DNA from: Methanolobus sp.
Lineage (GTDB): Archaea > Halobacteriota > Methanosarcinia > Methanosarcinales > Methanosarcinaceae
Assembly (NCBI RefSeq): GCF_016278385.1
Contig: NZ_JADQBY010000006.1
Coordinates: forward strand, 62,001-126,000
DNA: 64,000 nucleotides
Direction: 5' to 3'
The notes below the pieces were generated by a model. That model searched no databases. It was not told the DNA's origin and was given only the letters and a program-made list of their open reading frames with translations. Below, piece after piece: positions 1 through 12,596 of this stretch; position 1 is the first letter of the stretch; the number at the start of each line of letters is the position of its first letter. Made by a program: the position numbers and the translations under genes.

Positions 1-3000
1 GAAGAAACTCTCCATGTCATCATTGACGTATCTGTAGTACACATTCTCCCACATCTGGTCGTCGACCAATTCCGGATTAGAGACTTCCCATCCCCAGAGA
101 TTGTCAACGAACTCGGACATCATCCTGCCACCTGCATAACCGGAATTCATCATACCATCTATCCACTTGTCATTGAGATACCTAGAACGGATGTTCACAT
201 TGATGTATCTGCCAAGTTCCACGATTTCAGCCTGATCAGGGTTCCTTGTATCGGAGACATACATGTCAGGTGTGCTTCCGCTAACGTATCTTGTGGCAAG
301 GTTCAGTCCACCGAAGTACTGGAAGAAATCATCATTGTCCAGAGTGTCATACAGGTTAGATGAATCTGAATGCACAGAAGCGTCCACGTTCATCAGGTTG
401 CCTTCAAGCAGTTCGGAACTGTCGAAGCCCCAGAGTTCGCTACCATAGGCATATCCCATCTTATCAAGATACAACTCAGCAATTTCCGACTCATTCTCCC
501 ATGTACCACTGGATACGATAGCATTTCCAACAGCAATCTCGTAAGTTCCGTCACGGACTGCGAAGCAGCGCATGGTGGATAATGTAGTTGCCATCTCTGC
601 TGAATATGTCTCGTTACCTGTGCTGTTCAAGAAGGATGCATAAAGGTCTGTATAGATTGCCTGTGTGCTGCTATTGACGTAGTTCGGATAGTTGCCTGGT
701 TCTGCAAGGTTTGCCAGCTTTGAGGCTTCATCAAGCATCTTCAGCTTGTCAGGGAATGCATCACGCATACCTGCAGTGGTGTATACTATGTCAATACGTG
801 GTCTTCCAGCAGTAGAGTTATTGTAGTTAGGAAGCAGTTCTTCTTCAGGTATCAGTTCCACACCAGTTACCTTTCCATTCCTGTCCCAGACAGGCTGGAC
901 ACCCAGCAGATAAAGTGCTTCTGCTTCCAGTGTGCCGTGGTCCCGGATGAACTCCACACCAAACCTTGAGAATGAGACTTTATCCGGATATTCTCCGTGG
1001 TTCTGGTAATAATCATCTATGAGTTGCTGTGCAAGCATCTTTCCTAGTTTCCACGTGGCTTCGGAAGGATAGAGTTCAGGATTGACACCGTAGAAGTTTC
1101 GTCCTGTTGGCACTGCATTTGGATTCATCACAGGGTCAGTTCCCGGTCCTGCAGGAATAAATCCGGCACTAAGGGCCGATATCACACGGTCCATTTCAAT
1201 GGAACTGTCCAGCAGATTCTGCCTGCAATCAAGACCAAATTCAAGGTCGAGGTTAAGTGATTCATCAACTTCACCGTAGACCATCATCTGTGCATCAGAT
1301 GGCTTGGTTCCGTTGGTAACAATCTCCCATACAAGCTGGTCAATTTTTGTATCGTTGAAGGGAATACCAAGAGGATATTCATCAGCAGGATAATACGCTG
1401 CTGTAATGTTATCCTCAAAGTAACTTCCCATCATTGCTCTGACCATAGCTGAAAGTTCATCGGAGGCCGGGTCAGTTGAATTTGTGGAAGGAACTACTCC
1501 AAGTACGTGCATTCCATATGGTATGTTCTCGCCTTCAATATCCTCCAGATATTCATGAAGAGTATTTTTGACGAATATATCAAACTGTGACTCATTGTAC
1601 AGGTAGAGTTCAGATCCGTTAATCTTAAGGTCACTGTCTACACCTGCTTCTATCATTTCATCTATGATTTGCATCTGGTAGGCCTGCTTTGTCTGGAGTG
1701 ACATTTCAGGTCCGTAGTACTCCTGTATGAATCGTGACATGTTCTCAAGCTGGCCATAGGTTCCTGACCTTTCAAGTGTTGGAGTCAGGTGGTCAATGAT
1801 AAGCGCATTACCACGGCATTCTGCAGTAAGTCCTTCACCTACGTTTGCCATGATATATGGGTAGATGTTTGGAAGATCCTGCAATAGTAATGGTGCCCAT
1901 TCGGCAGAACGGTTCATACCGTATGCCTGTCCTGGCAGCCATTCATGCGTACCATGGGTACCAAGATGAATTATTGCATCTGCATCCCAGTCCTTATTCA
2001 ACCAGAGGTAGAATGCAATATACTGGTGGGGTGGTGGCACAATACTGCTGTGGTAGAGCGTATCATCATTTTGCATGAATCCCCTTGCAGGCTGTGGCAT
2101 TATCCAGACGTTTCCAAACTGCACAGTTGGTATTACTATGAACTTCTCTCCATTGTCATCTTCCCATATCATGAGGCTCTGGTTCTGCGGAAGATCCTCA
2201 TCCCAGGGTGCTCCCCACTGTTCAATGACGTCATCTCTTAGGTCTTCAGGTATGTCCTCCTCGAACCACTGCCTGTAAGTGTCCATTGGTATGAGCTGGA
2301 GTCCCCATTCAGTCCTATTCTCCACCATCTCGTACATGACACCGGGTGCCCAGGAACCTGCATTGATACCCTGTGCCCATATCTTGTTAAGGAGTACACT
2401 GTTGTTCTCTGGGATATCTGTGACCGTAAAGTCACTCTCATTCATCTTGTTGAGCATCAGTCGCATACTGGATATCACATCAAGATAACTTGCACCTATG
2501 TTGTCTTTTCCTGAAGGATAGTTGTAGTAGATAATTGCTACTTTCTTGTCCTTGTTCTCATTGAGTTTAAGCTCAGCCCAGTTTATGGACCTGTTAACTA
2601 TCCAGTCAACCTGTGCATCACTTGGTGTTTGTACACTGGTTTCTGTGTTAGGGTCATATACGCTGTCTCCAACGACTATAAACTCGAAGATACCATCAAC
2701 GTTAGGACCTATTGTCTTACGGACAACCTGTCCATTTGGAATTCCACGGTTTGCATCTGCAGGGTCGTATGTGTTCGTACTTTCGACTACGATTCCCCTT
2801 AATACGGGAACATCCAGTGCTTCGAGTTCACGTAACCCCTTCTCATTATCGAAATAGTTCAGCCTGAAACTCTTCATTGAGATAACGCACTGGACAAGGG
2901 ACTGGTTGTTCTCATCACAGTAGTACTTGACAATGTCATCAAAAGTATCGAATCCCAGTATCACATTGCAGTCCTTTGATTCGAGGTCTCTCAGGATAGC

Positions 3001-4683
3001 CTCTGCAACCTCAGTATGTCCTTCCTTGACATCCGACCTGTGCATCCACATGCCGATAGTTGGTCTGGATGGGTCGTATACTCTGTGGGTTCCGCTGTCA
3101 TCAGAATACCAGGCAAGGTATTCTTCGGTGCTTTCGAAGAACTTTCCTTCATAATCCGGATGGTAGAGTCCAATATCCGGGAGTGAGGCAGTATCAAGTA
3201 CAACGTATTCCCATTCATCCGTAAGTTCTGCCTGATTACCGAGTTTTGCAAGGTGTATCAACAGGTTCTCTGCATTGTTCAATTGGGCACTGGTTGCAGT
3301 TCCCATGTTGTTGTAATAGTTACAAAGGGTATTGTTCTCGCTTCCATTGTAAACATAATCGAAATACTCAGGAGTATCCATGGAACGTATGTCAACAAGC
3401 ACAGTACCGTTATCATGTGCGCTAGTGATGTACTGGTCTATAGGTTCAAAAATACTGCCTGCAAGCATATCACAGAATATTACATCCTGTTCATCCAGCA
3501 GTCCTCCTTTGGCAGCAGCCAGTAGTTCATCACTAGGTCCGGCCCATGTTGTAGTGTTATAGGATGGTAAATATTTGTACTCGATATTCTGGCTGTATGG
3601 GTTTGTCTGGCTTGCATTTGTCAGGGCGTCGCTTGGTGCCCATGCGATGTAGAGTATCTTTATTGTTTGCCAGTAATCGGTAATTTCAGGATGGTTGCCG
3701 TACTCTTTTGAAATGTATGTCAACAGGTTATCTGCATTCATTCTTTCAACTTCGGTATCTGTTCCCATGCTGTTGTAATAGTTACAAATCGGGTCATCTA
3801 TTGAACCATTAGATGCGTAATTAAAGTATTCCGGTGTGTTGATAGAACGGATATCCACCAATGAAACACCATTATCATGAGCAGAGTTGAATGAATCGTT
3901 CAGCGGTTCATAAATGCTTGCCGATAACATGTCGCAGAAAATCACGTCTTGCTCATTGAGAAGTCCGCTCTCTGCAGCTTCGATGATTTCATTACTTGGA
4001 CCTGCCCATGTTGTTGTATTATATGAAGGGATGTAAGTGTATTCTATATCGCCGCTGTGGACATTGTTCTGGCTTGCAAGTTCCAGTGCATCACTTGGTT
4101 GCCATGCGATATAGAGGATATTGATAGTATCAGCAGCCTCTTCCCATAGGTCAGTTATGTCTTCCCAGTTTCCATACTCCATAGCCAGATATTTCAGAAG
4201 CTCTTCTGCATTCTCTCTGCTGGTTTCTGTATCTACTCCCATATTATTGTACAGGTTACAGATAGTGTCATCATCTGTTCCATCGCTCACATAATCAAAA
4301 TAAGATGGAGTGTCAATGGGGTTAATATCCACAAGGGATGTTCCGTTGTCGTGTGCCTCTTTAAAAGAAGTATTGATAGGATCGTAGACCGCTCCGGACA
4401 GCATGTCACAGAAGATCACATCCTGCTTTTCCAGTAGTCCGTTGTTTGCAGCTTCAATGAGTTCGTCGCTGGGTCCGGTCCATGTTGTGGTGTTAAATGA
4501 CGGTATGTAGATGTAATTGATGTCATCGGCAAAGGATGCGTTCTGACTTGCCATTTCCAGTGCCGGGTCAGGCATCCATGCTATATACATTATATTTACT
4601 TTGTCTTCATCTGCCGCTGCTATACCAATTAATGATACCAACAATATGCTTAATACTAATATCGATCTAATTTTCAGTTGCAT
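1..4683 (-). CDS. Giant secreted CobN/chelatase-H-like protein (3' end outside window)
   Basis: The frame is open from an ATG at 4683 to the window edge (1561 codons seen, no stop). Residues 1-25 form a signal peptide (MQLKIRSILVLS..., cleavage near AAAD). Three tandem repeats of about 150 residues follow, each with ILYIAW-PSDALE, YNTTTWAGPSDE and QDVIFCDML motifs. From about residue 490 the chain is CobN-like: IGASYLD, GTHGTHEWLPGQ (about residue 905), NVGEGLTAECRGNALIIDHL, GRPRIDI, and LWGWEVSNPELV at the visible end. CobN/ChlH-family subunits bind the tetrapyrrole in metal chelatases; the signal peptide and many N-x-S/T sites place this one outside the cell. It lies 145 bp downstream of a second such gene and has its own structured leader. 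Cobalt chelation for B12 synthesis is unlikely at this location; tetrapyrrole capture or metal removal is my inference. Confidence 0.85.
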   Translation of the reverse strand, partial: MQLKIRSILVLSILLVSLIGIAAADEDKVNIMYIAWMPDPALEMASQNASFADDINYIYIPSFNTTTWTGPSDELIEAANNGLLEKQDVIFCDMLSGAVYDPINTSFKEAHDNGTSLVDINPIDTPSYFDYVSDGTDDDTICNLYNNMGVDTETSRENAEELLKYLAMEYGNWEDITDLWEEAADTINILYIAWQPSDALELASQNNVHSGDIEYTYIPSYNTTTWAGPSNEIIEAAESGLLNEQDVIFCDMLSASIYEPLNDSFNSAHDNGVSLVDIRSINTPEYFNYASNGSIDDPICNYYNSMGTDTEVERMNADNLLTYISKEYGNHPEITDYWQTIKILYIAWAPSDALTNASQTNPYSQNIEYKYLPSYNTTTWAGPSDELLAAAKGGLLDEQDVIFCDMLAGSIFEPIDQYITSAHDNGTVLVDIRSMDTPEYFDYVYNGSENNTLCNYYNNMGTATSAQLNNAENLLIHLAKLGNQAELTDEWEYVVLDTASLPDIGLYHPDYEGKFFESTEEYLAWYSDDSGTHRVYDPSRPTIGMWMHRSDVKEGHTEVAEAILRDLESKDCNVILGFDTFDDIVKYYCDENNQSLVQCVISMKSFRLNYFDNEKGLRELEALDVPVLRGIVVESTNTYDPADANRGIPNGQVVRKTIGPNVDGIFEFIVVGDSVYDPNTETSVQTPSDAQVDWIVNRSINWAELKLNENKDKKVAIIYYNYPSGKDNIGASYLDVISSMRLMLNKMNESDFTVTDIPENNSVLLNKIWAQGINAGSWAPGVMYEMVENRTEWGLQLIPMDTYRQWFEEDIPEDLRDDVIEQWGAPWDEDLPQNQSLMIWEDDNGEKFIVIPTVQFGNVWIMPQPARGFMQNDDTLYHSSIVPPPHQYIAFYLWLNKDWDADAIIHLGTHGTHEWLPGQAYGMNRSAEWAPLLLQDLPNIYPYIMANVGEGLTAECRGNALIIDHLTPTLERSGTYGQLENMSRFIQEYYGPEMSLQTKQAYQMQIIDEMIEAGVDSDLKINGSELYLYNESQFDIFVKNTLHEYLEDIEGENIPYGMHVLGVVPSTNSTDPASDELSAMVRAMMGSYFEDNITAAYYPADEYPLGIPFNDTKIDQLVWEIVTNGTKPSDAQMMVYGEVDESLNLDLEFGLDCRQNLLDSSIEMDRVISALSAGFIPAGPGTDPVMNPNAVPTGRNFYGVNPELYPSEATWKLGKMLAQQLIDDYYQNHGEYPDKVSFSRFGVEFIRDHGTLEAEALYLLGVQPVWDRNGKVTGVELIPEEELLPNYNNSTAGRPRIDIVYTTAGMRDAFPDKLKMLDEASKLANLAEPGNYPNYVNSSTQAIYTDLYASFLNSTGNETYSAEMATTLSTMRCFAVRDGTYEIAVGNAIVSSGTWENESEIAELYLDKMGYAYGSELWGFDSSELLEGNLMNVDASVHSDSSNLYDTLDNDDFFQYFGGLNLATRYVSGSTPDMYVSDTRNPDQAEIVELGRYINVNIRSRYLNDKWIDGMMNSGYAGGRMMSEFVDNLWGWEVSNPELVDDQMWENVYYRYVNDDMESFF
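3220..4605 (-). repeat. Three tandem ~150-residue repeats in the upstream CobN-like protein
   Basis: Approximate units are 4605-4170, 4130-3680 and 3670-3220. Each begins with a beta strand of type INILYIAW, passes through YIPSYNTTTW and VIFCDML, and ends with AHDNG-SLVDI, TPEYFNY and CNYYNNMGT. Each unit resembles a degenerate copy of the N-terminal CobN segment, so the array may be a stalk or extra ligand domains. No such units are visible in the neighbouring CobN-like protein. Confidence 0.75.
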
Positions 4684-4790
4684 GTTATCCCCCGATAACT
4701 TGTAGTGACACTCCTCCATCATGCTTGGCGGCTTTTTAGGGGGAGTGTACACATTTGTTTTGTATGTATTTTTATCAATTCATATATTAA
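4683..4790 (-). promoter_or_regulatory. Promoter and structured 5' leader of CobN-like gene 1
   Basis: On the minus strand a TATA-like TTAATATATG (4781-4790) predicts transcription from about 4760. The leader then holds a hairpin whose arms ACACTCC (4742-4748) and GGAGTGT (4708-4714) enclose the loop motif GCCGCCAAGCA (4722-4732). A second small hairpin, TTATC-GGGG-GATAA (4685-4698), has the Shine-Dalgarno-like G run in its loop directly before the ATG. The leader of the other CobN-like gene has the same order of elements. This is a candidate cis-regulatory RNA; no ligand is known. Confidence 0.55.
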
Positions 4791-4828: not shown

Positions 4829-7800
4829 CTATTGTTTCCTTTTCACAAATCCAATATACATAGCTCCAACACCTGCCAGTACTAAAAGAGAGGCAAGGAT
4901 ATCAGAACCTGAAATTGAGGTTCCGGTGCTTGATGCATTCTGATCCGTACTCTCCTTTGTCATCTCATAACCTTCCACATAGTTATCCTCGGAAGGAGAT
5001 TTCAATGAAGCTTCTGTGTCAAGGTCTTCACCTGCACCTGCATCACTTACTGTAGCCTGGTTTCCTGAGCCTGAGCTTGGTTCTACTATTTTGAGTTCTG
5101 ATCTGCTACTGCTGGAACTTGAACTTGAGGATGAACTGGATTTTGTTGATGTGCTTGTAGAGATTTCTGTCGCAGTGGTGGCTGTTTCTAAAATCTCCCT
5201 GTATGAATCCAGTTCAGCCTGGCTGATCTCGCCAGCCTCTACCAGAGTCTGTGCAATTCCATCCACAAATTCCTGGTTAAGGAAATTTCCACAGGTGTGA
5301 TGACAACAGGTAGCACCGTTCTCGTTCACAGACTTAATCTGTTCTTCAACAAGACTCTGGAGGGCTTCATCAGAGGCATCCCAGTTACCCTTACGAACAG
5401 TTTCTGTCATTCTGGAAACCATTGCCTGATAGGCATATGGGTTGTTCTCTTTCAGCCAGCCACTAAGCTCTGCGTCTGTAAAATAGGTGTCATAAACACT
5501 GTTCCATACATCATCACTGATAAGGCCCGGGTCAAGTGCTTCCCATCCCCATAGATTCTCAATGAAGCTTTCCATCTCCCTGGCTCCTTCGTAACCATGC
5601 GCCTGCATTCCGCTTATCCAGCTTGGGTTGAAGTATCTTGCATAGAGTTCGTTGGATATATAGGTTGAAAGTGTCTGTACTTCCAGGTCACTTAGATCCT
5701 GCAGGTTCACAACATATGCATCCGGTGCTTCTCCTGACACGTAAGTAATAGCGTTATACAGTCCACCCATGTACTGGTAGAAATCATCAGTATCAAGGGA
5801 ACCGTATGTGCTGGAACTTCTGCTGTGGAATATCGCCTGGGTGTCGTTGAGATTATTCTCAAAGACAACTGTACTGTCAATATCAACAATCTGACCTGTC
5901 TGCAGTTCTATATAGTCGCTTATGCTATGTCCCCAGATGTTCTGTCCATAAACAAAGCTCATTTTGTCAATATACAGTTCAGCCAGCTCGGTATTGTTTT
6001 CCCAGGTATCACTGGCACTGACAGCATTTGCCATTCCTGTGCCGTATGCCCTATCTGCAGGACCGAATATCCTGAACTGTGCAATATCAAGTGACAGGTT
6101 TCCATCCTGTATTGTTTCGTTAAGTGTAACCTGCAGTGCATCAGTGTTCAGGGTAACGTGATTTTCGTACTCATCCGTCTCACCTTCTGCGTATGCAAGT
6201 CTTACAGCTTTGTCAATGAGTTCAACCTTCATCGGGAAGGTATCCCTGTACAAACCTGATATCTGGACTATGACGTCAATACGTGGTCTTCCAAGTTCGC
6301 TGGGGTTGATGACCTGTACATCTTCAACTTCATTGTTGTCTTCATTCCAAACAGGTTCAATTCCCATGAGGTAGAGGATCTGTGCTTCCATTATTCCTTC
6401 GTGGCGTGTGGATTCTCCTGCCCACAGGATATATCCTACCTTTGTTGGATATTCCCCGTTCTCTTCGTAGTATGAGGCAAGCCATTCGTCCACAAGGGCT
6501 TTACCTTCTTCCCACGCCTCTTTTGTAGGGATCAACAGCTCGTCAAATGCATAGAAGTTGCTACCGGATGGCAGTGTTTCAGTTTTAAGTACAGGGTCCC
6601 CGCCAAGATTCGGACTGATAAATTCACCATTCATGGCTGCAAGTACCTGCTCGATCTCGTTGTCGGCTTTACCAAGCAGTTCTGCATAGTCAATGGCAGC
6701 GCTGAGCTCTGCATCTATGGCAGTGTCATTTGTCCCTAGAATACGTGTCTGTGCATCGGAAGATGACACATTATCCAGCAGTACAAGTGATAACAGGTCA
6801 ATAGCTGCGGAATCCGTAGTATTATATGCTGTCACCTGATCTGAGAAACCATCTCCAAGCATGGAGTTTACCATTCCGACAAGAGCCGTTCCTTCTGGTG
6901 CTTCTCCAAGTATGTGTAGTCCATAAGGCATGGACTGGCTTTTGAGATCATCAAGGATGTCACCAAGCTCATCGAGGAACACTTCCACTGTCTCGTTGTC
7001 CTGTGCCAGACTGACATTTACCTGTTCATCAAGGTTGAGTTCAAGTGTCAGGTTGACAATTTCCTGTATATGTGCCTGATTTAAGGATGCGTCTTCTGTA
7101 AGTGATGTCTGGTAGGTAGTGATCTCACTGCTGAGTAGGCTGTAATTTCCATAAAGACCTGCGGAAACAACTGGTGGTATTAGATGGTCAATAATTATGG
7201 CATTACTCCTGCGTTTTGCCTGCAAACCTTCACCCATTCCATCCATTACATATGGATAGATAACTGGTATGTCACCAACCATGATTGCTGGCCACTCATC
7301 GCTTAGCAGACCAAAGTCCTTTCCGGGTAGCCACTCCACTGTTCCGTGCCTTCCCATGTTTACCATTACATCGGCATCGAATTCATGTTGCATCCATAGG
7401 TAGAATGCGATGTACTGGTGGTGTGGTGCCAGTTCTGTGTCATGGTAGAGTACTTCATTGTTCTGCAGCCATCCCCTTGTGGGTTGTGGTGCAAGTATCA
7501 CATTGTCACTGACACTTATTGTTGGGATGACGATGAATTTGTCTCCACTATCATCTGTGTAGACCATTATCTCGCCAGGAGCCTCTCCCCACGTTTCTAT
7601 TACTTCTTCCCTTCTCTCTTCAGGAAGCTCGTTGAACCATGAAAGGTATGTGCTTTCCGGAATCAGTTCTACTTCATCTGTTTTAACAAGCGCTTCAAGT
7701 TCTCCGGGTGCCCAGGTACCAACATTTCTTCCCTGATGGACCATTAGATCCACAAGTTCTGTCTTGTTTGGTATAAGGCTGCTGTCAATATCGTATCCGT

Positions 7801-10780
7801 CATCTGCCATTCCCTCAAGCAGGTTCACGATACTTGGTGTGACCTCAAGGTATGATGCACCGATATTGTCCTTACCGCCACCGTGGTTGTAATAGATAAT
7901 AGCGACTTTCTTGTCAGCCTCTTCTTCTGTTCCAAGCTTAGCCTGTGCAATTGTACGTTCAACAAGCCAGTCGATCTGCTCATCGTGACCGATGTATTTC
8001 TCCACAGTGCTGTTGTCAATAGTTATTGTCTCCTTTGCACCGATCATAATCGGATCAATGAGTCCCTCTGTCTCAGGACCGTAGATCCTGAGCATATTTG
8101 TCACAGGCAGAGGTGTGGTGCTTTCTATCCACTCGCTTGTGTTCATATAGCCGTTAAGCACGGCGTTCATTACAGGAACTCCAAGTCCTTCTATGTCAAA
8201 GTAGTTGCCACGGTAGTGGAATGAAACCACTGCATCAACCTTTGTTTCACAGCTGTGGTTGAGGTAGCCGTCAAGATAGTTATTGGCATTTCCATAACAT
8301 GTGACAACATTGACACCATTATTCTCAAAGCCCTCAATGAGCTTGTTAATGGGGTCCATATCATCCGGATAGTAGGAATTATAGAATGTGATACCAACTG
8401 TTGGGGCATTCGCATCAAAAGTATGTCCGTCAGTTCTGTTTGCATACCAGCTGAAATACTCATCAGCATCACCGGTGAAGTATTCCATAGGTGTTGTTGT
8501 CATTGAAGGATGGTAGATGGCACTGTCAAAGCCGGTTGGTTCTTCAACAGTAAGATCGTCACGTTCATAATATTCCTGTGCAAGGTAGAAAATAAGGCTA
8601 TCAAAGTTTGATCCGTCTGAAGATCCACCTGACCAGTATTGTGCAAGATGGGTCTTAAACTCGCTCTGATCTGCAAATTCACCCGGTACGGCATAATTGC
8701 TCTCAGGCAGATAGGTGTTCGAACCTATTACCACAGCACCGTTATCAATTGCATCCTGGACATTATCCTCAAGGATAGCCGCACTCTGGGTGACCATGAC
8801 AATGTAAATTATATCTTCATTGCTCAGGTCAATGTCATCAGGAAGACTGGTTGTGACATAGTAACTGAAGTCAATATTAAGCTCACTGTTGGAATCGATT
8901 CTTTCTTCCAGGGCGATGAATTCATTTTCATATGATGAATAGCCGGTTACAAAGGCGACATTCAGGTGTGGCTCATTTGATGAAGCTACAGCCCTTTTTT
9001 TCATCAGCACTATTTCACTGATCTTGTTGTCACCTTTCTTTCCAATTGTCTTTCCTGAGATGGAAGTTTCATTCATCATTGAGAGAATAGCCTCGTGGTC
9101 AATGTCAGCATTCGTTCTCATCGTAATGTTGCCAATTTCAGCTGGCATTCCGTTTTGGACTGTGACATCTGTTACATTTGTCAGCCAGATTCCTCCCATT
9201 GCTGAACTCCAGTTCACGGCGGACACTGTGTATTCACCATTCCTCATTCCTTCAAACAGGAACTCTCCTTCAGTGTCTGTTGTGGTATCAGCCATGTATT
9301 CTCCGTGCTGGTTTGTTAGTACCAGATCTGAAATTTTGTAATCGCCTTTTTTACCGATGGTCCTGCCTGAAATGTAAGTCTCATTCATCATTGAGAGTAT
9401 TGCATCGTGGTCGATGTCATCGTTACTTCTCATTGTTATGTTGCCGATTTCAACCGGCATTCCGCTCTTAACTGTGACATCTGTTACGTTTGTCAGCCAG
9501 GTTCCTCCCATTGCTGAACTCCAGTTCACAGCTGAGAGTTGGTATTCACCGTAGGGGATATTCTCAAAGATGAAATCACCCAGTTCATTGCTTGTAAGGC
9601 TGAGGAAGTATTCATAGGCAGAACCAGTGCTGTATGAAGTGTTATCAGTTGTATTCTCAGATGTGTCTCCTGTATCATCTGCTGGCTCTTCAGTACTGGT
9701 ATCGTTCTGTTCTTCCTCTTCATCAGATGCAGAAGGTATGTCTGTATATTCACCATCACCTTTTCTCTGAAGCAAAACAACAAGACACTGTCTGGGGTAA
9801 TCTGTTTTCATTACATAGGTCATACCTGATATGGATGACCTGCTAAGCATTCCCAGAATATAGTTCTCATCAATATCCGTTGAACTGCTTACCTTTATGT
9901 TCTGGTTTGTAAGTTCAGTGCCATTAAGTGTTACATTGATAATTCCTTTGTACCACAATTCCTTTTCAGTTGAGTAATTTACTGCAACTACACTGTAGTC
10001 TCCACTTGGGATATCATTAAATGTGTAAATTCCAGTTTCATTCGAGCTTGTATTTGCTATCAACTCTTTTGTTTGCTGGTCAAGGAGGACTACTGTACTC
10101 TCTCTTGGATAGTCCGTTTTCATGACATATGTCATACCTGATATAGATGAGCTGCTAACAAGTCCCAGTACGTAGTTTTCATCTATGTCTGTTGAACTGC
10201 TTACCTTTATGTTCTGGTCCGTAAGGTCGGTACCTGTAAGTGTCACATTGATGATTCCCTTGTACCATAGTTCCTTTTCAGTTGAGTAGTTCACTGCAAC
10301 TATACTGTAGTCTCCATCAGGGATGTCTGTAAAAGTGTATATTCCAGTTTCATCTGAGTTTGTGTCTACTATCAGTTTCTTTGTTTGCTTGTCAAGGAGA
10401 ACTACAGTACTCTCCCTTGGATAATCAGTTTTCATGACATAGGTCATGCCTGAGATAGATGAGCTGTTAAATAATCCATAAATAGAACTGATGTCCACAT
10501 CTGTTGTGCTGTTTACCTTTATGGTTTGGTCTGTTAGGTCTGTACTCTGTAATGTTACATTTTTTATTCCTGTGTACCATAACATCTTCTGCTCAGACCA
10601 GTTCACTGCCACCAGAGTGTAATCTCCATTAGGAATATCTTCTAAAATAAAATTACCATCATAGTTACTGGTTGTATTAGCAATTAGTTTGTAATGGCTT
10701 TCTTCTGCTGATACTACGGTTGTTAGCGATAGTAGTAACAATAAATTTATGAATAATATCAATCTTCTTTTTAGTTGCAT
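4829..10780 (-). CDS. Giant CobN/chelatase-H-like surface protein with C-terminal membrane anchor
   Basis: 1983 residues, complete. Order: signal peptide (1-25, ends TVVSAEE); three carboxypeptidase-regulatory-like beta repeats (about 30-330), each with SGMTYVMKTDYPRE; an acidic Thr-rich linker; two further repeats of the NWSSAMGG type (about 390-600); the CobN-like body (about 615-1850) with DKKVAIIYYNHGGGKDNIGA, a GRHGTVEWLPGKDFG block near residue 1143 and GEGLQAKRRSNAIIIDH; the Cys/His cluster ATCCHHTCGN near 1825; a poly-Ser linker; and a C-terminal hydrophobic helix ending in FVKRKQ. CobN family members bind tetrapyrroles; here the protein is exported and tethered with the CobN part outside. 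It follows the ExbB/DUF2149/DUF2162 genes on the same strand, which suggests a joint transport or dechelation role (inference). Confidence 0.9.
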   Translation of the reverse strand: MQLKRRLILFINLLLLLSLTTVVSAEESHYKLIANTTSNYDGNFILEDIPNGDYTLVAVNWSEQKMLWYTGIKNVTLQSTDLTDQTIKVNSTTDVDISSIYGLFNSSSISGMTYVMKTDYPRESTVVLLDKQTKKLIVDTNSDETGIYTFTDIPDGDYSIVAVNYSTEKELWYKGIINVTLTGTDLTDQNIKVSSSTDIDENYVLGLVSSSSISGMTYVMKTDYPRESTVVLLDQQTKELIANTSSNETGIYTFNDIPSGDYSVVAVNYSTEKELWYKGIINVTLNGTELTNQNIKVSSSTDIDENYILGMLSRSSISGMTYVMKTDYPRQCLVVLLQRKGDGEYTDIPSASDEEEEQNDTSTEEPADDTGDTSENTTDNTSYSTGSAYEYFLSLTSNELGDFIFENIPYGEYQLSAVNWSSAMGGTWLTNVTDVTVKSGMPVEIGNITMRSNDDIDHDAILSMMNETYISGRTIGKKGDYKISDLVLTNQHGEYMADTTTDTEGEFLFEGMRNGEYTVSAVNWSSAMGGIWLTNVTDVTVQNGMPAEIGNITMRTNADIDHEAILSMMNETSISGKTIGKKGDNKISEIVLMKKRAVASSNEPHLNVAFVTGYSSYENEFIALEERIDSNSELNIDFSYYVTTSLPDDIDLSNEDIIYIVMVTQSAAILEDNVQDAIDNGAVVIGSNTYLPESNYAVPGEFADQSEFKTHLAQYWSGGSSDGSNFDSLIFYLAQEYYERDDLTVEEPTGFDSAIYHPSMTTTPMEYFTGDADEYFSWYANRTDGHTFDANAPTVGITFYNSYYPDDMDPINKLIEGFENNGVNVVTCYGNANNYLDGYLNHSCETKVDAVVSFHYRGNYFDIEGLGVPVMNAVLNGYMNTSEWIESTTPLPVTNMLRIYGPETEGLIDPIMIGAKETITIDNSTVEKYIGHDEQIDWLVERTIAQAKLGTEEEADKKVAIIYYNHGGGKDNIGASYLEVTPSIVNLLEGMADDGYDIDSSLIPNKTELVDLMVHQGRNVGTWAPGELEALVKTDEVELIPESTYLSWFNELPEERREEVIETWGEAPGEIMVYTDDSGDKFIVIPTISVSDNVILAPQPTRGWLQNNEVLYHDTELAPHHQYIAFYLWMQHEFDADVMVNMGRHGTVEWLPGKDFGLLSDEWPAIMVGDIPVIYPYVMDGMGEGLQAKRRSNAIIIDHLIPPVVSAGLYGNYSLLSSEITTYQTSLTEDASLNQAHIQEIVNLTLELNLDEQVNVSLAQDNETVEVFLDELGDILDDLKSQSMPYGLHILGEAPEGTALVGMVNSMLGDGFSDQVTAYNTTDSAAIDLLSLVLLDNVSSSDAQTRILGTNDTAIDAELSAAIDYAELLGKADNEIEQVLAAMNGEFISPNLGGDPVLKTETLPSGSNFYAFDELLIPTKEAWEEGKALVDEWLASYYEENGEYPTKVGYILWAGESTRHEGIMEAQILYLMGIEPVWNEDNNEVEDVQVINPSELGRPRIDVIVQISGLYRDTFPMKVELIDKAVRLAYAEGETDEYENHVTLNTDALQVTLNETIQDGNLSLDIAQFRIFGPADRAYGTGMANAVSASDTWENNTELAELYIDKMSFVYGQNIWGHSISDYIELQTGQIVDIDSTVVFENNLNDTQAIFHSRSSSTYGSLDTDDFYQYMGGLYNAITYVSGEAPDAYVVNLQDLSDLEVQTLSTYISNELYARYFNPSWISGMQAHGYEGAREMESFIENLWGWEALDPGLISDDVWNSVYDTYFTDAELSGWLKENNPYAYQAMVSRMTETVRKGNWDASDEALQSLVEEQIKSVNENGATCCHHTCGNFLNQEFVDGIAQTLVEAGEISQAELDSYREILETATTATEISTSTSTKSSSSSSSSSSSSRSELKIVEPSSGSGNQATVSDAGAGEDLDTEASLKSPSEDNYVEGYEMTKESTDQNASSTGTSISGSDILASLLVLAGVGAMYIGFVKRKQ
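8990..10700 (-). repeat. Five N-terminal beta-domain repeats of the anchored CobN-like protein
   Basis: Three units (about 10700-10430, 10430-10110, 10110-9780) repeat IP-GDYSVVAVNYSTEKELWY, SGMTYVMKTDYPR and DENYVLG motifs; units 2 and 3 are close to identical even at the DNA level. Two more (about 9610-9310 and 9310-8990) share NWSSAMGG-WLTNVTDVTV and DAILSMMNET. The first unit lacks the opening strand that the others have, as if the array had been trimmed to join the signal peptide. The pattern points to recent intragenic duplication. Confidence 0.75.
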
Positions 10781-10936: not shown

Positions 10937-11299
10937 CTAAGTAGAGGTGGTATTACCCTCCTCTGGCACATAAACAACTCTTCCATCAGCCAGTTTATAG
11001 GCTGTACCCAGGGCTTCACCTTGTCCACCACCGATCTGGTCTGTCATATTCAGGACTTCAATAGGCTGTCCTTCTTCCTTGATGATTATCTTCATATCTT
11101 TCTCACCCGGGTTTTTGACTAGTACTATATCATCGGTGGGACTGAGCAGCTCCGGCAACTGGTATGACATGACCAGTGCCACTAGAAGTGCAACTGAGAA
11201 GACCATGGCGATGTCAAAAAGGTTGGCAACCCCGGTCAGGGGGTTTTGTTCGTCCTCATTATCTATGAGTCCAGTTCGTCTGTATCTTCTTTTCTTCAC
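10937..11299 (-). CDS. DUF2149 protein, ExbD/TolR-like single-pass membrane protein
   Basis: 120 residues. A basic N-terminus (MKKRRYRRTG) is followed by one membrane helix at about 24-47 that starts LFDIAMVF, then an extracytoplasmic domain rich in beta strands (IIKEEGQPIEVL, GRVVYVPEEG). The topology and the acidic residue at the start of the helix (Asp29) match ExbD/TolR, whose intramembrane aspartate carries the proton. The start overlaps the stop of the ExbB-like gene by 4 bases (ATGA), so the two are translationally coupled. Family: DUF2149 (from memory). The ExbD analogy is inference from topology and context. Confidence 0.8.
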   Translation of the reverse strand: MKKRRYRRTGLIDNEDEQNPLTGVANLFDIAMVFSVALLVALVMSYQLPELLSPTDDIVLVKNPGEKDMKIIIKEEGQPIEVLNMTDQIGGGQGEALGTAYKLADGRVVYVPEEGNTTST

Positions 11300-11919
11300 T
11301 CCGCTACCTCCAGGGTATCCAGAACGTAATCTATATCAGCCATGTCCTGCCAGTACCATCTTTTTCTGATTTGGGTTAAAACGTATCCGATAGTTCCGGC
11401 AAACAACCCAATAACAGTTGTAGCAAAAGCTATCATGAGATTGTTGGCAAGCTGTACAATGTCACCCTGTGAAAGACCAATAAGAGCAGGTCCCAGGGGA
11501 ATGAGTGTTCCCATCAGACCAAGCATTGGTGAGATTGTTGCAACGATCCTAGTCTGTTCTAGTCTCTTTGCCATCTTAATCTCATATTCCTGTGACAGCC
11601 ATTCGATGGCTGGTATCATATTCTTTTCAAGATGGTCTGCAGCAGAAACTGCAAAATTTGTAACCATGAAATTCTGCTTGATATTACGCAGTGAGTTTGC
11701 AGCAATTCCAAATTCCTGAGAAGCTACATGTTTTCTGACACTGTTACAGCAGAGTTCCAGATTTTCGATATCACGGTGTCTTTTTGAGTATTCTGAAAGG
11801 AATTCCCCAATTAGCATTAAGGAGAATACCACCAGTAATATCAGAAGGATTATCACCGGGTACAGCAATGAAGCTGAAAATGTGTATAATATACCAAACA
11901 ACGAAGATGTTGCATCCAT
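11296..11919 (-). CDS. MotA/TolQ/ExbB-family proton channel protein
   Basis: 207 residues with three predicted membrane helices (about 15-40, 128-150, 158-185) and a long cytoplasmic stretch between the first two, the ExbB/TolQ layout. The block SPMLGLMGTLIPLGPALIG matches the family signature around helix 2, and ATTVIGLFAGTIGYVL the third helix. In bacteria such proteins form a pentamer around an ExbD/TolR dimer and convert ion flow into work on a distant protein. The upstream DUF2162 stop is two bases away and DUF2149 overlaps the 3' end, so this is the middle gene of a three-gene operon. No TonB- or receptor-like gene is visible. Confidence 0.88.
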   Translation of the reverse strand: MDATSSLFGILYTFSASLLYPVIILLILLVVFSLMLIGEFLSEYSKRHRDIENLELCCNSVRKHVASQEFGIAANSLRNIKQNFMVTNFAVSAADHLEKNMIPAIEWLSQEYEIKMAKRLEQTRIVATISPMLGLMGTLIPLGPALIGLSQGDIVQLANNLMIAFATTVIGLFAGTIGYVLTQIRKRWYWQDMADIDYVLDTLEVAE

Positions 11920-11921
11920 TT

Positions 11922-12596
11922 TTATTGACCTCTTATGTTGTTGAGGGCATAGCCTCCAATTATGAAAATAGTGAATATCAACAATGGGATAATTTCAAAC
12001 TCTCCGCCGCTGTTGAGCATCATATTGAGCTTTTTTGCTTTGATATAGGCAGGAACCACCATTGCTCCAAGAAGATAGAAAATTCCCAAAAACATCATTG
12101 CTGTTCCCAGATCTTCAGGTGTTTTTTTCATCTTCCTGAAAACCCATGTTGATGATATTACTGATATGAAAAAGACAAATCCTACAAGGACCCCGACCTT
12201 CCACCCGCTGACCTCAAGGGTTGAAGCCAGTATCATACAGGATACAAAAAGTGCTGTCAGGCAAACAGGACAGGGTACGGAAATAACAAGGAAAGTCTTC
12301 TTTGAAACGTCAAGTCCACAGTTCCATTTTTTCTGTGTATATATTCCTGCAATAATGAGCACAAGTGCTATGAAAACATGAAGCGCCATCCCAAGATTGG
12401 AAACACTTTCCAGGTATGACTGGTCTACCATTTCAACCAGACTTCCAAGTATTATTGAAATAATGAAATAGCTGCTTGCAAGTATCAGGACATCTCTTCT
12501 TCTGACCGTGGAAAATCCACATCCTACTCCTGTTTTTAAGCCAAATATAAATATGCCTATTAGTATACCAGCTACAGCCGCATAAACGTAATTCAT
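11922..12596 (-). CDS. DUF2162 polytopic membrane protein, putative transporter
   Basis: 224 residues with about seven hydrophobic segments. The N-terminus (AAVAGILIGIFIFGLKTGVG) and the motif VPCPVCLTAL (around residue 108) are the clearest landmarks; the CPVC cysteine pair inside or next to a membrane helix could bind a metal or carry electrons. It is the first gene of the operon with the ExbB-like and DUF2149 proteins. A ribosome site (AAAAAGGAGAA) precedes the ATG at good spacing and a TATA-like TATATATTTG lies near 12620-12635. Substrate unknown; metal ion or tetrapyrrole product is a guess from its neighbours. Confidence 0.75.
   Translation of the reverse strand: MNYVYAAVAGILIGIFIFGLKTGVGCGFSTVRRRDVLILASSYFIISIILGSLVEMVDQSYLESVSNLGMALHVFIALVLIIAGIYTQKKWNCGLDVSKKTFLVISVPCPVCLTALFVSCMILASTLEVSGWKVGVLVGFVFFISVISSTWVFRKMKKTPEDLGTAMMFLGIFYLLGAMVVPAYIKAKKLNMMLNSGGEFEIIPLLIFTIFIIGGYALNNIRGQ

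Follow-up and report, generated by a model that had tools for sequence, protein, structure and literature searches.

The DUF2149 protein V and its ExbB-like partner U, encoded in one gene unit with a CobN-type chelatase, S, are proposed to form an ion-driven membrane motor in which V is the axle and U the wheel, and whose client is S and not TonB; we put the probability of this reading at about 0.6. The unit lies in the window, the whole 64,000-nucleotide stretch of Methanolobus sp. DNA that was analysed, to which all coordinates refer; all features with coordinates in the window lie on its minus strand. The gene for the predicted transporter T (DUF2162) is located upstream of U-V, while S and then a second CobN-type gene, S2, follow downstream. 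The novelty of the system seems to lie in its setting, an operon that combines U-V with a membrane-anchored CobN-type (de)chelatase outside the cytoplasm and often with T. The idea of an ExbD-like DUF2149 is itself not new, as the available text of a 2023 paper already applies it to HmuV, the Bacteroides DUF2149 protein (PMC10100974); the accessible part of a 2026 paper describes HmuV as lacking homology to any known family (PMC13227078). The literature found, partly seen and with subscription papers mostly outside the search, contains no archaeal S-T-U-V core as an outer-membrane-less system, no proposal of a motor for a chelatase and no coupling of S and T motifs.

Results

A single-helix protein with a near-invariant aspartate

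The V gene (10937..11299; 120 aa) uses GTG as its start codon and overlaps the U gene by 4 nt (U, 11296-11919; V start, 11299), in accord with the translational overlap with an ExbB-like gene described in an earlier note on this DNA. DUF2149 (PF09919, E 4.4e-34, residues 21-113) is the sole Pfam match to V in a scan up to E 10. A frame or start artefact for V is ruled out by the match to DUF2149, the U-V order kept across loci and a spacing that hardly varies.

V begins with the basic tail MKKRRYRR, and AlphaFold2 (AF2) confidently models a helix at residues 20-46 (11162..11242), block pLDDT reaching 92, so that the single N-terminal helix after a basic tail anticipated in the note is borne out. 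The strands past the helix are of low confidence (mean pLDDT 61.5 overall) and the helix alone is reliable; the small beta-rich outer domain envisaged in the note is therefore plausible, but drawn from uncertain strands. Residue 29, within ...GVANLFDIAMVF... (codon 11213..11215), is Asp. Its conservation had been named beforehand as a point on which the ExbD proposal could fall, and it held: Asp29 is present in 80 of 81 readable V rows and replaced by Glu in Runella (82 archaeal and bacterial rows, one of them cut), and in 64/64 rows of the archaeal set alone. The rows counted were fetched without an Asp-containing pattern, and 80 loci fetched with such a pattern were left out. V is 89% identical in the relatives Methanolobus vulcani (L159) and Methanolobus sp. 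(L155), and the window's genome carries a second U-V pair on another contig.

Comparison of V with ExbD/TolR

The view of DUF2149 as a divergent ExbD/TolR stands in part: Asp29, its register and a true ExbB/TolQ partner speak for it, but the family profile and the fold of the outer domain do not. In hhalign comparisons with a 35-sequence ExbD alignment, Asp29 falls on the ExbD Asp and LFDVAMVF lies over LIDVMLVL, in keeping with the claimed Asp at the helix start. As described in the available text of PMC7014051, Asp25 of ExbD faces Thr148 and Thr181 of ExbB in the cryo-EM structure. The alignment covers the helix only (15-19 columns), with E 0.0053 and Prob 6.8% over 15 columns for all 150 DUF2149 sequences, E 0.0014 and Prob 17.9% for the 54 bacterial ones, and E 0.041 and Prob 1.3% over 19 columns for the 96 archaeal ones. 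Profile-profile comparison, with its Prob of 1-18% and its coverage of the TM helix alone, thus did not bear out the relationship. Shuffling the ExbD TM columns equalled the hhalign score in 2 of 120 trials for the bacterial set and in 6 of 120 for all sequences.

The best score of a DUF2149 protein with an in-house ExbD profile is 14.1 bits (E 0.023 in 9,744 ORFs). In a stricter control for whether just any TM protein scores as well, at least 6 bits with the ExbD HMM are reached by 29 of 179 DUF2149 ORFs versus none of 1,959 other ORFs that have a TM-like segment. Leaving ExbD itself aside, the ten best matches are all DUF2149, as are 28 of the best 30. With the DUF2149 HMM, five of the top 10 non-DUF2149 matches are ExbD, a family represented by 40 of the 9,744 ORFs. 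In absolute terms these scores are weak, since one ORF taken without TM selection reached 12.2 bits. The ExbD/TolR family profile (PF02472) gave no match to V in the Pfam scan up to E 10, a Foldseek search with the AF2 model of V, reliable in its helix alone, returned no match at E 0.001 or better, and the four matches of the V profile among PDB sequences do not include ExbD. What V has in common with ExbD/TolR is the single N-terminal TM helix (20-46) with a conserved Asp near its start. As judged from sequence, V is an ExbD-type helix with its Asp joined to an outer domain of its own; that it works like ExbD is well supported, that it belongs to the ExbD/TolR family is not.

U is an ExbB/TolQ homologue paired with V

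U (11296..11919; 207 aa), the proposed pentamer (wheel) subunit, belongs to the MotA/TolQ/ExbB family (PF01618, E 3.8e-11; 43.3 bits at a cut-off of 22.9). The best match of its profile to PDB sequences is ExbB (2.5e-5), with TolQ and MotA also found, and the top 42 Foldseek PDB matches of its AF2 model (pLDDT 89.1) are all ExbB or TolQ chains. Thr138, the 'GT' threonine of U (codon 11506..11508), aligns with Thr148 of ExbB in a HMMER alignment to 5sv0 and is present in 141/141 V-paired U proteins; Thr168, the 'AFATT' threonine of U (11416..11418), aligned by HMMER with ExbB Thr181, is nearly invariant. With the profile, the three-TM fold and both pore threonines of the family, U is a true ExbB/TolQ homologue.

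U lies directly upstream of V on the same strand for 165 of 179 V ORFs, and the arrangement is therefore not due to chance; most of the other 14 are found at contig ends or have over-long ORF starts. In 153 of 169 pairs, the Asp codon of V is located 1-120 nt past the U stop. Both counts, like the 141/141 above and the neighbour counts out of 90 and the count of 55 bacterial loci given below, include duplicates, because some contigs are present as two locus records. Mean-field DCA on 142 U-V pairs (Neff 74) displayed no TM-to-TM enrichment and was set aside as uninformative.

Membrane-anchored chelatases and a cysteine motif coupled to T

S (4829..10780; 1983 aa; PF02514, 1061 bits) is a CobN-type chelatase with a signal sequence, N-terminal beta repeats and a C-terminal TM; hydrophobic segments are present at both termini. 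The tandem S2 (1..4752; PF02514, 1.7e-280) runs off the window, and its C-terminal part beyond it (L228) bears CCHHTCGN and a C-terminal TM. Among V-linked S, a hydrophobic segment is seen C-terminally in 71 and N-terminally in 59 of 81 distinct proteins at the threshold used. Neither segment occurs in any of 15 unlinked CobN (8 from genomes without V and 7 from genomes with V), one of which (L218) has a V gene on the opposite strand at a distance of about 4 kb. His1145 of S (codon 7346..7348) and His933 of S2 occupy the column of HmuS His538, which holds His in 86 of 91 S. Position 538 was read on the HmuS of B. finegoldii; the published mutant is that of B. theta, in which H538A abolishes heme turnover according to the available text of PMC12583661. 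From both the 81- and the 91-protein sets, S with identical C-terminal parts were removed. A membrane-anchored CobN with the catalytic-His column is hence found together with U and V, as in the HmuSTUV core. For M. barkeri, the accessible text of PMC10846266 reports two CobN-like proteins that rise when FeS2, or Fe(II) with cysteine in place of sulfide, supplies the iron and sulfur.

T (11922..12596; 224 aa; PF09930, E 3.9e-68) is a predicted DUF2162 transporter in the HmuT position. Its PCPVC motif (residues 108-112; 12261..12275) is conserved as PCPxC, with P, C and P in 92/92 T rows and the second C in 91/92. Near its C-terminal membrane anchor, S carries CCHHTC (residues 1825-1830; 5291..5308); a CCxHTC-type motif is found near the C terminus of 53 of 91 S and in 0/15 unlinked CobN. 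The motif and T go together: 46 loci have both, 34 neither, 7 the motif only and 4 T only (P 9e-14). In six of the seven motif-only loci, the V gene is close to the contig start and the T position is out of view; among the four T-only cases, the window's S2 is counted twice, its motif lying outside the window, and another S extends up to the end of its locus. Mismatches are thus mostly cut genes or contig ends, apart from L075, which has a different gene in the T position, and L154, a real exception. The co-occurrence of CCxHTC in S and PCPxC in T leads us to propose that T receives metal from S. In Runella, the T-position gene weakly matches DsbD_2/NicO and the unit sits among hyp genes.

Genomic neighbourhood and distribution

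For 72 of the 90 V genes that have at least 5 kb on both sides, a CobN gene is no more than 9.5 kb away, nearly always on the same strand, and for 55 of the 90 a DUF2162 gene is no more than 3 kb away. Across 392 genomes of the phylum, CobN is present in 110/115 genomes with V versus 122/277 without, and within the order in 57/58 versus 0/11, both comparisons being uncorrected for phylogeny.

The T-U-V-S gene unit itself was seen to contain no AAA+ subunits. Among genomes with CobN and at least 95% complete, a strong cobaltochelatase AAA+ match is missing from 18 of 74 with V versus 3 of 94 without (P 4e-5, uncorrected for phylogeny). Matches were split at E 1e-80 because generic AAA+ proteins score with the family model as well; G036, with partial matches (1e-29), was taken as lacking, and G232 and G364, without V and with marginal CobN, were left out. 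Strong matches are present in the other 56 of 74, and also in CobN-less relatives such as G246. The window's genome encodes a BchI-like and a BchD/VWA-like AAA+ protein in tandem, away from CobN (L226:8297-11056, G000:C39). In the available text of the G. lovleyi genome paper, a plasmid CobN is described without CobS and CobT partners (PMC3403914).

No CobN is nearby in 18 of the 90 cases, and nine of these also lack T within 3 kb. Several such U-V pairs adjoin giant secreted proteins of the CARDB, NosD/beta-helix or S-layer type (L033:5137-9452; L041:1-8946; L051:1637-9069), as do further ones (L059:11377-17565; L065:8637-16503). In L042, the scanned neighbour is short and matches CARDB weakly, with a long protein also present, and L112, L062 and L056 show no such giant among the scanned neighbours.

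In L069 (7641-15540), a T-U-V-S cluster has decayed, with CobN in many pieces and V truncated. Four loci whose titles name Methylacidiphilum, Nitrospira japonica, Marinifilum and Nitrosotalea (L087, L093, L096 and L131) have U-V units that are close to Geobacter-type or methanogen-type ones; these are either misbinned contigs or recent transfers.

TonB and canonical ExbD

The archaeal cells considered here have no outer membrane for such motors. TonB_C, the mark of energy transduction through TonB and an outer-membrane receptor, is found in 0/30 V-bearing archaeal genomes searched versus 5/5 bacterial genomes or records. Canonical ExbD is found in 0/11 archaeal genomes searched (10 of them with V), in 11/11 bacterial genomes and in one of three plasmid records. 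V as a spare ExbD for TonB was accordingly rejected for the archaea, and as both proteins are absent from the archaea searched, U-V is no spare Ton motor there. A canonical ExbB-ExbD of their own stands beside U-V-S in 3 of 55 bacterial loci, including Trichlorobacter pGLOV01, in which TonB is annotated; in these three, too, U-V is probably no spare Ton motor.

Discussion

On the proposed model, the motor would be a putative 5:2 assembly in which V, as the ExbD-type subunit, forms the axle and U, as the ExbB-type subunit, the wheel. The catalytic part of S would reside outside the cytoplasm, beyond the reach of an ATP-driven AAA+ partner. Ion flow past Asp29 of V and Thr138/Thr168 of U could turn or pull V, and the outer domain of V would then push S through its catalytic cycle, acting on substrate closure, ring distortion or the release of product. 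Metal set free in this way may pass from CCHHTC of S to PCPxC of T and across the membrane via T. That a 5:2-type motor directly powers an extracytoplasmic metal chelatase, replacing the AAA+ motor of cytoplasmic CobN/ChlH, is put forward more tentatively, at somewhat short of even odds.

Several lines of evidence argue for a motor with a chelatase as client: the pore threonines of U, the register of Asp29, the ranking by ExbD profile and the adjacency of U and V; the linkage to CobN, the anchors of S, the absence of both TonB and ExbD from the archaeal genomes searched and the excess of CobN without strong AAA+ matches; and the three bacterial loci with U-V-S beside canonical ExbB-ExbD and the S-T motif coupling. 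Cytoplasmic CobN and ChlH depend on ATP-dependent partner subunits, and purified HmuS is limited to 1-2 turnovers, as stated in the available text of PMC12583661; this limit, which also supports the model, would fit a missing energised reset step. The same text reports heme de-chelation by HmuS in vitro without ATP or a membrane gradient, with NADH and a membrane fraction needed; a motor is therefore unnecessary for the chemistry itself, and the finding counts against the model. So do the AAA+ matches in 56 of 74 genomes and the BchI/BchD-like pair of the window's genome, with the caveat that CobN-less relatives match the same AAA+ model strongly too, and so do the short and weak similarity of V to ExbD, the lack of a U-V covariation pattern and the 18 of 90 U-V pairs without CobN.

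The accessible text of PMC10100974 and PMC12583661 takes the Bacteroides hmu pair to energise TonB, so that U-V (HmuU-HmuV) would be a dedicated ExbB-ExbD for TonB and an outer-membrane receptor and the CobN link a matter of shared regulation. TonB-dependent receptors near U-V in many bacterial loci agree with this; we nevertheless consider it unlikely, as the archaea searched keep U-V-S without TonB or ExbD, U-V-S in three bacterial loci adjoins an ExbB-ExbD pair encoded there separately, and all 11 bacterial genomes searched contain canonical ExbD. No more probable is a role of V in assembly or docking, with V holding U, T and S together and conducting no ions. Its small outer domain, the lack of an ExbD fold match and a profile similarity confined to one helix would suit such a role, but a near-invariant Asp at the motor position and both ExbB pore threonines in U speak against it. 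Least probable of the three is a reductive or transport complex, in which T would provide reducing power or move metal, U-V a pathway or its gating, and S would work without mechanical energy. The need of HmuS for NADH and not ATP in vitro (PMC12583661, available text), the invariant PCPxC of T and the weak DsbD_2/NicO likeness of the Runella gene point in this direction; against it, many U-V-S units lack T or have a different one (55/90 V genes have DUF2162 within 3 kb), and U-V stays with S even then.

A motor that directly powers S would be the first such motor described in archaea, as far as the literature found goes. If a motor with S as client is correct, it would give a mechanism to two domains of unknown function, DUF2149 and DUF2162. 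Enzyme catalysis at the cell surface would then join outer-membrane transport, flagella and phage defence among the uses of ion-driven motors, and the stalling of purified HmuS after one or two turnovers could be explained. The U-V module of related loci may likewise serve giant surface proteins of the CARDB, NosD or S-layer kind; as a lead only, it may be a more general archaeal surface motor. Archaea are said, in the available text of PMC12583661, to lack complete hmu operons, and their use of HmuS/CobN homologues is left open there; the S-T-U-V core, present and conserved in archaea, bears on this use.

Among known systems, hmuYRSTUV of Bacteroidota likewise unites members of the S, U and V families in a single operon (also PMC10434189, in its accessible text), and catalytic His538 of HmuS aligns with His1145 of the window. 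In contrast, HmuY and the TonB-dependent receptor system are absent in the archaea, Bacteroides HmuT has neither the PCPxC of DUF2162 nor a Pfam match, and in the CCxHTC motif column the cysteine is missing from S of B. finegoldii. In the Zur regulon of Pseudomonas aeruginosa, PA1922-PA1925 comprise a receptor, a CobN-like protein, an ExbB/ExbD-type gene and DUF2149 in a row; this set is zinc-regulated, belongs to a bacterium with an outer membrane and is of unknown function in the available text of PMC9431628 and PMC4542158. Table 2 there labels PA1924 as ExbD, the DUF2149 protein being PA1925; given the gene order, this label may be wrong and PA1924 may instead correspond to U, the ExbB-like gene. 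S shares its catalytic subunit family (PF02514) with the class I chelatases CobN-CobST and ChlH-ChlID, but is secreted and anchored, and strong AAA+ matches are absent from some genomes. In the comparison with ExbB-ExbD-TonB and TolQ-TolR-TolA, U is homologous, and here too the small partner bears an Asp on its only helix and the large partner the threonines; the outer domain of V is unmatched, TonB and the outer membrane have no counterpart here, and the client appears to be a chelatase.
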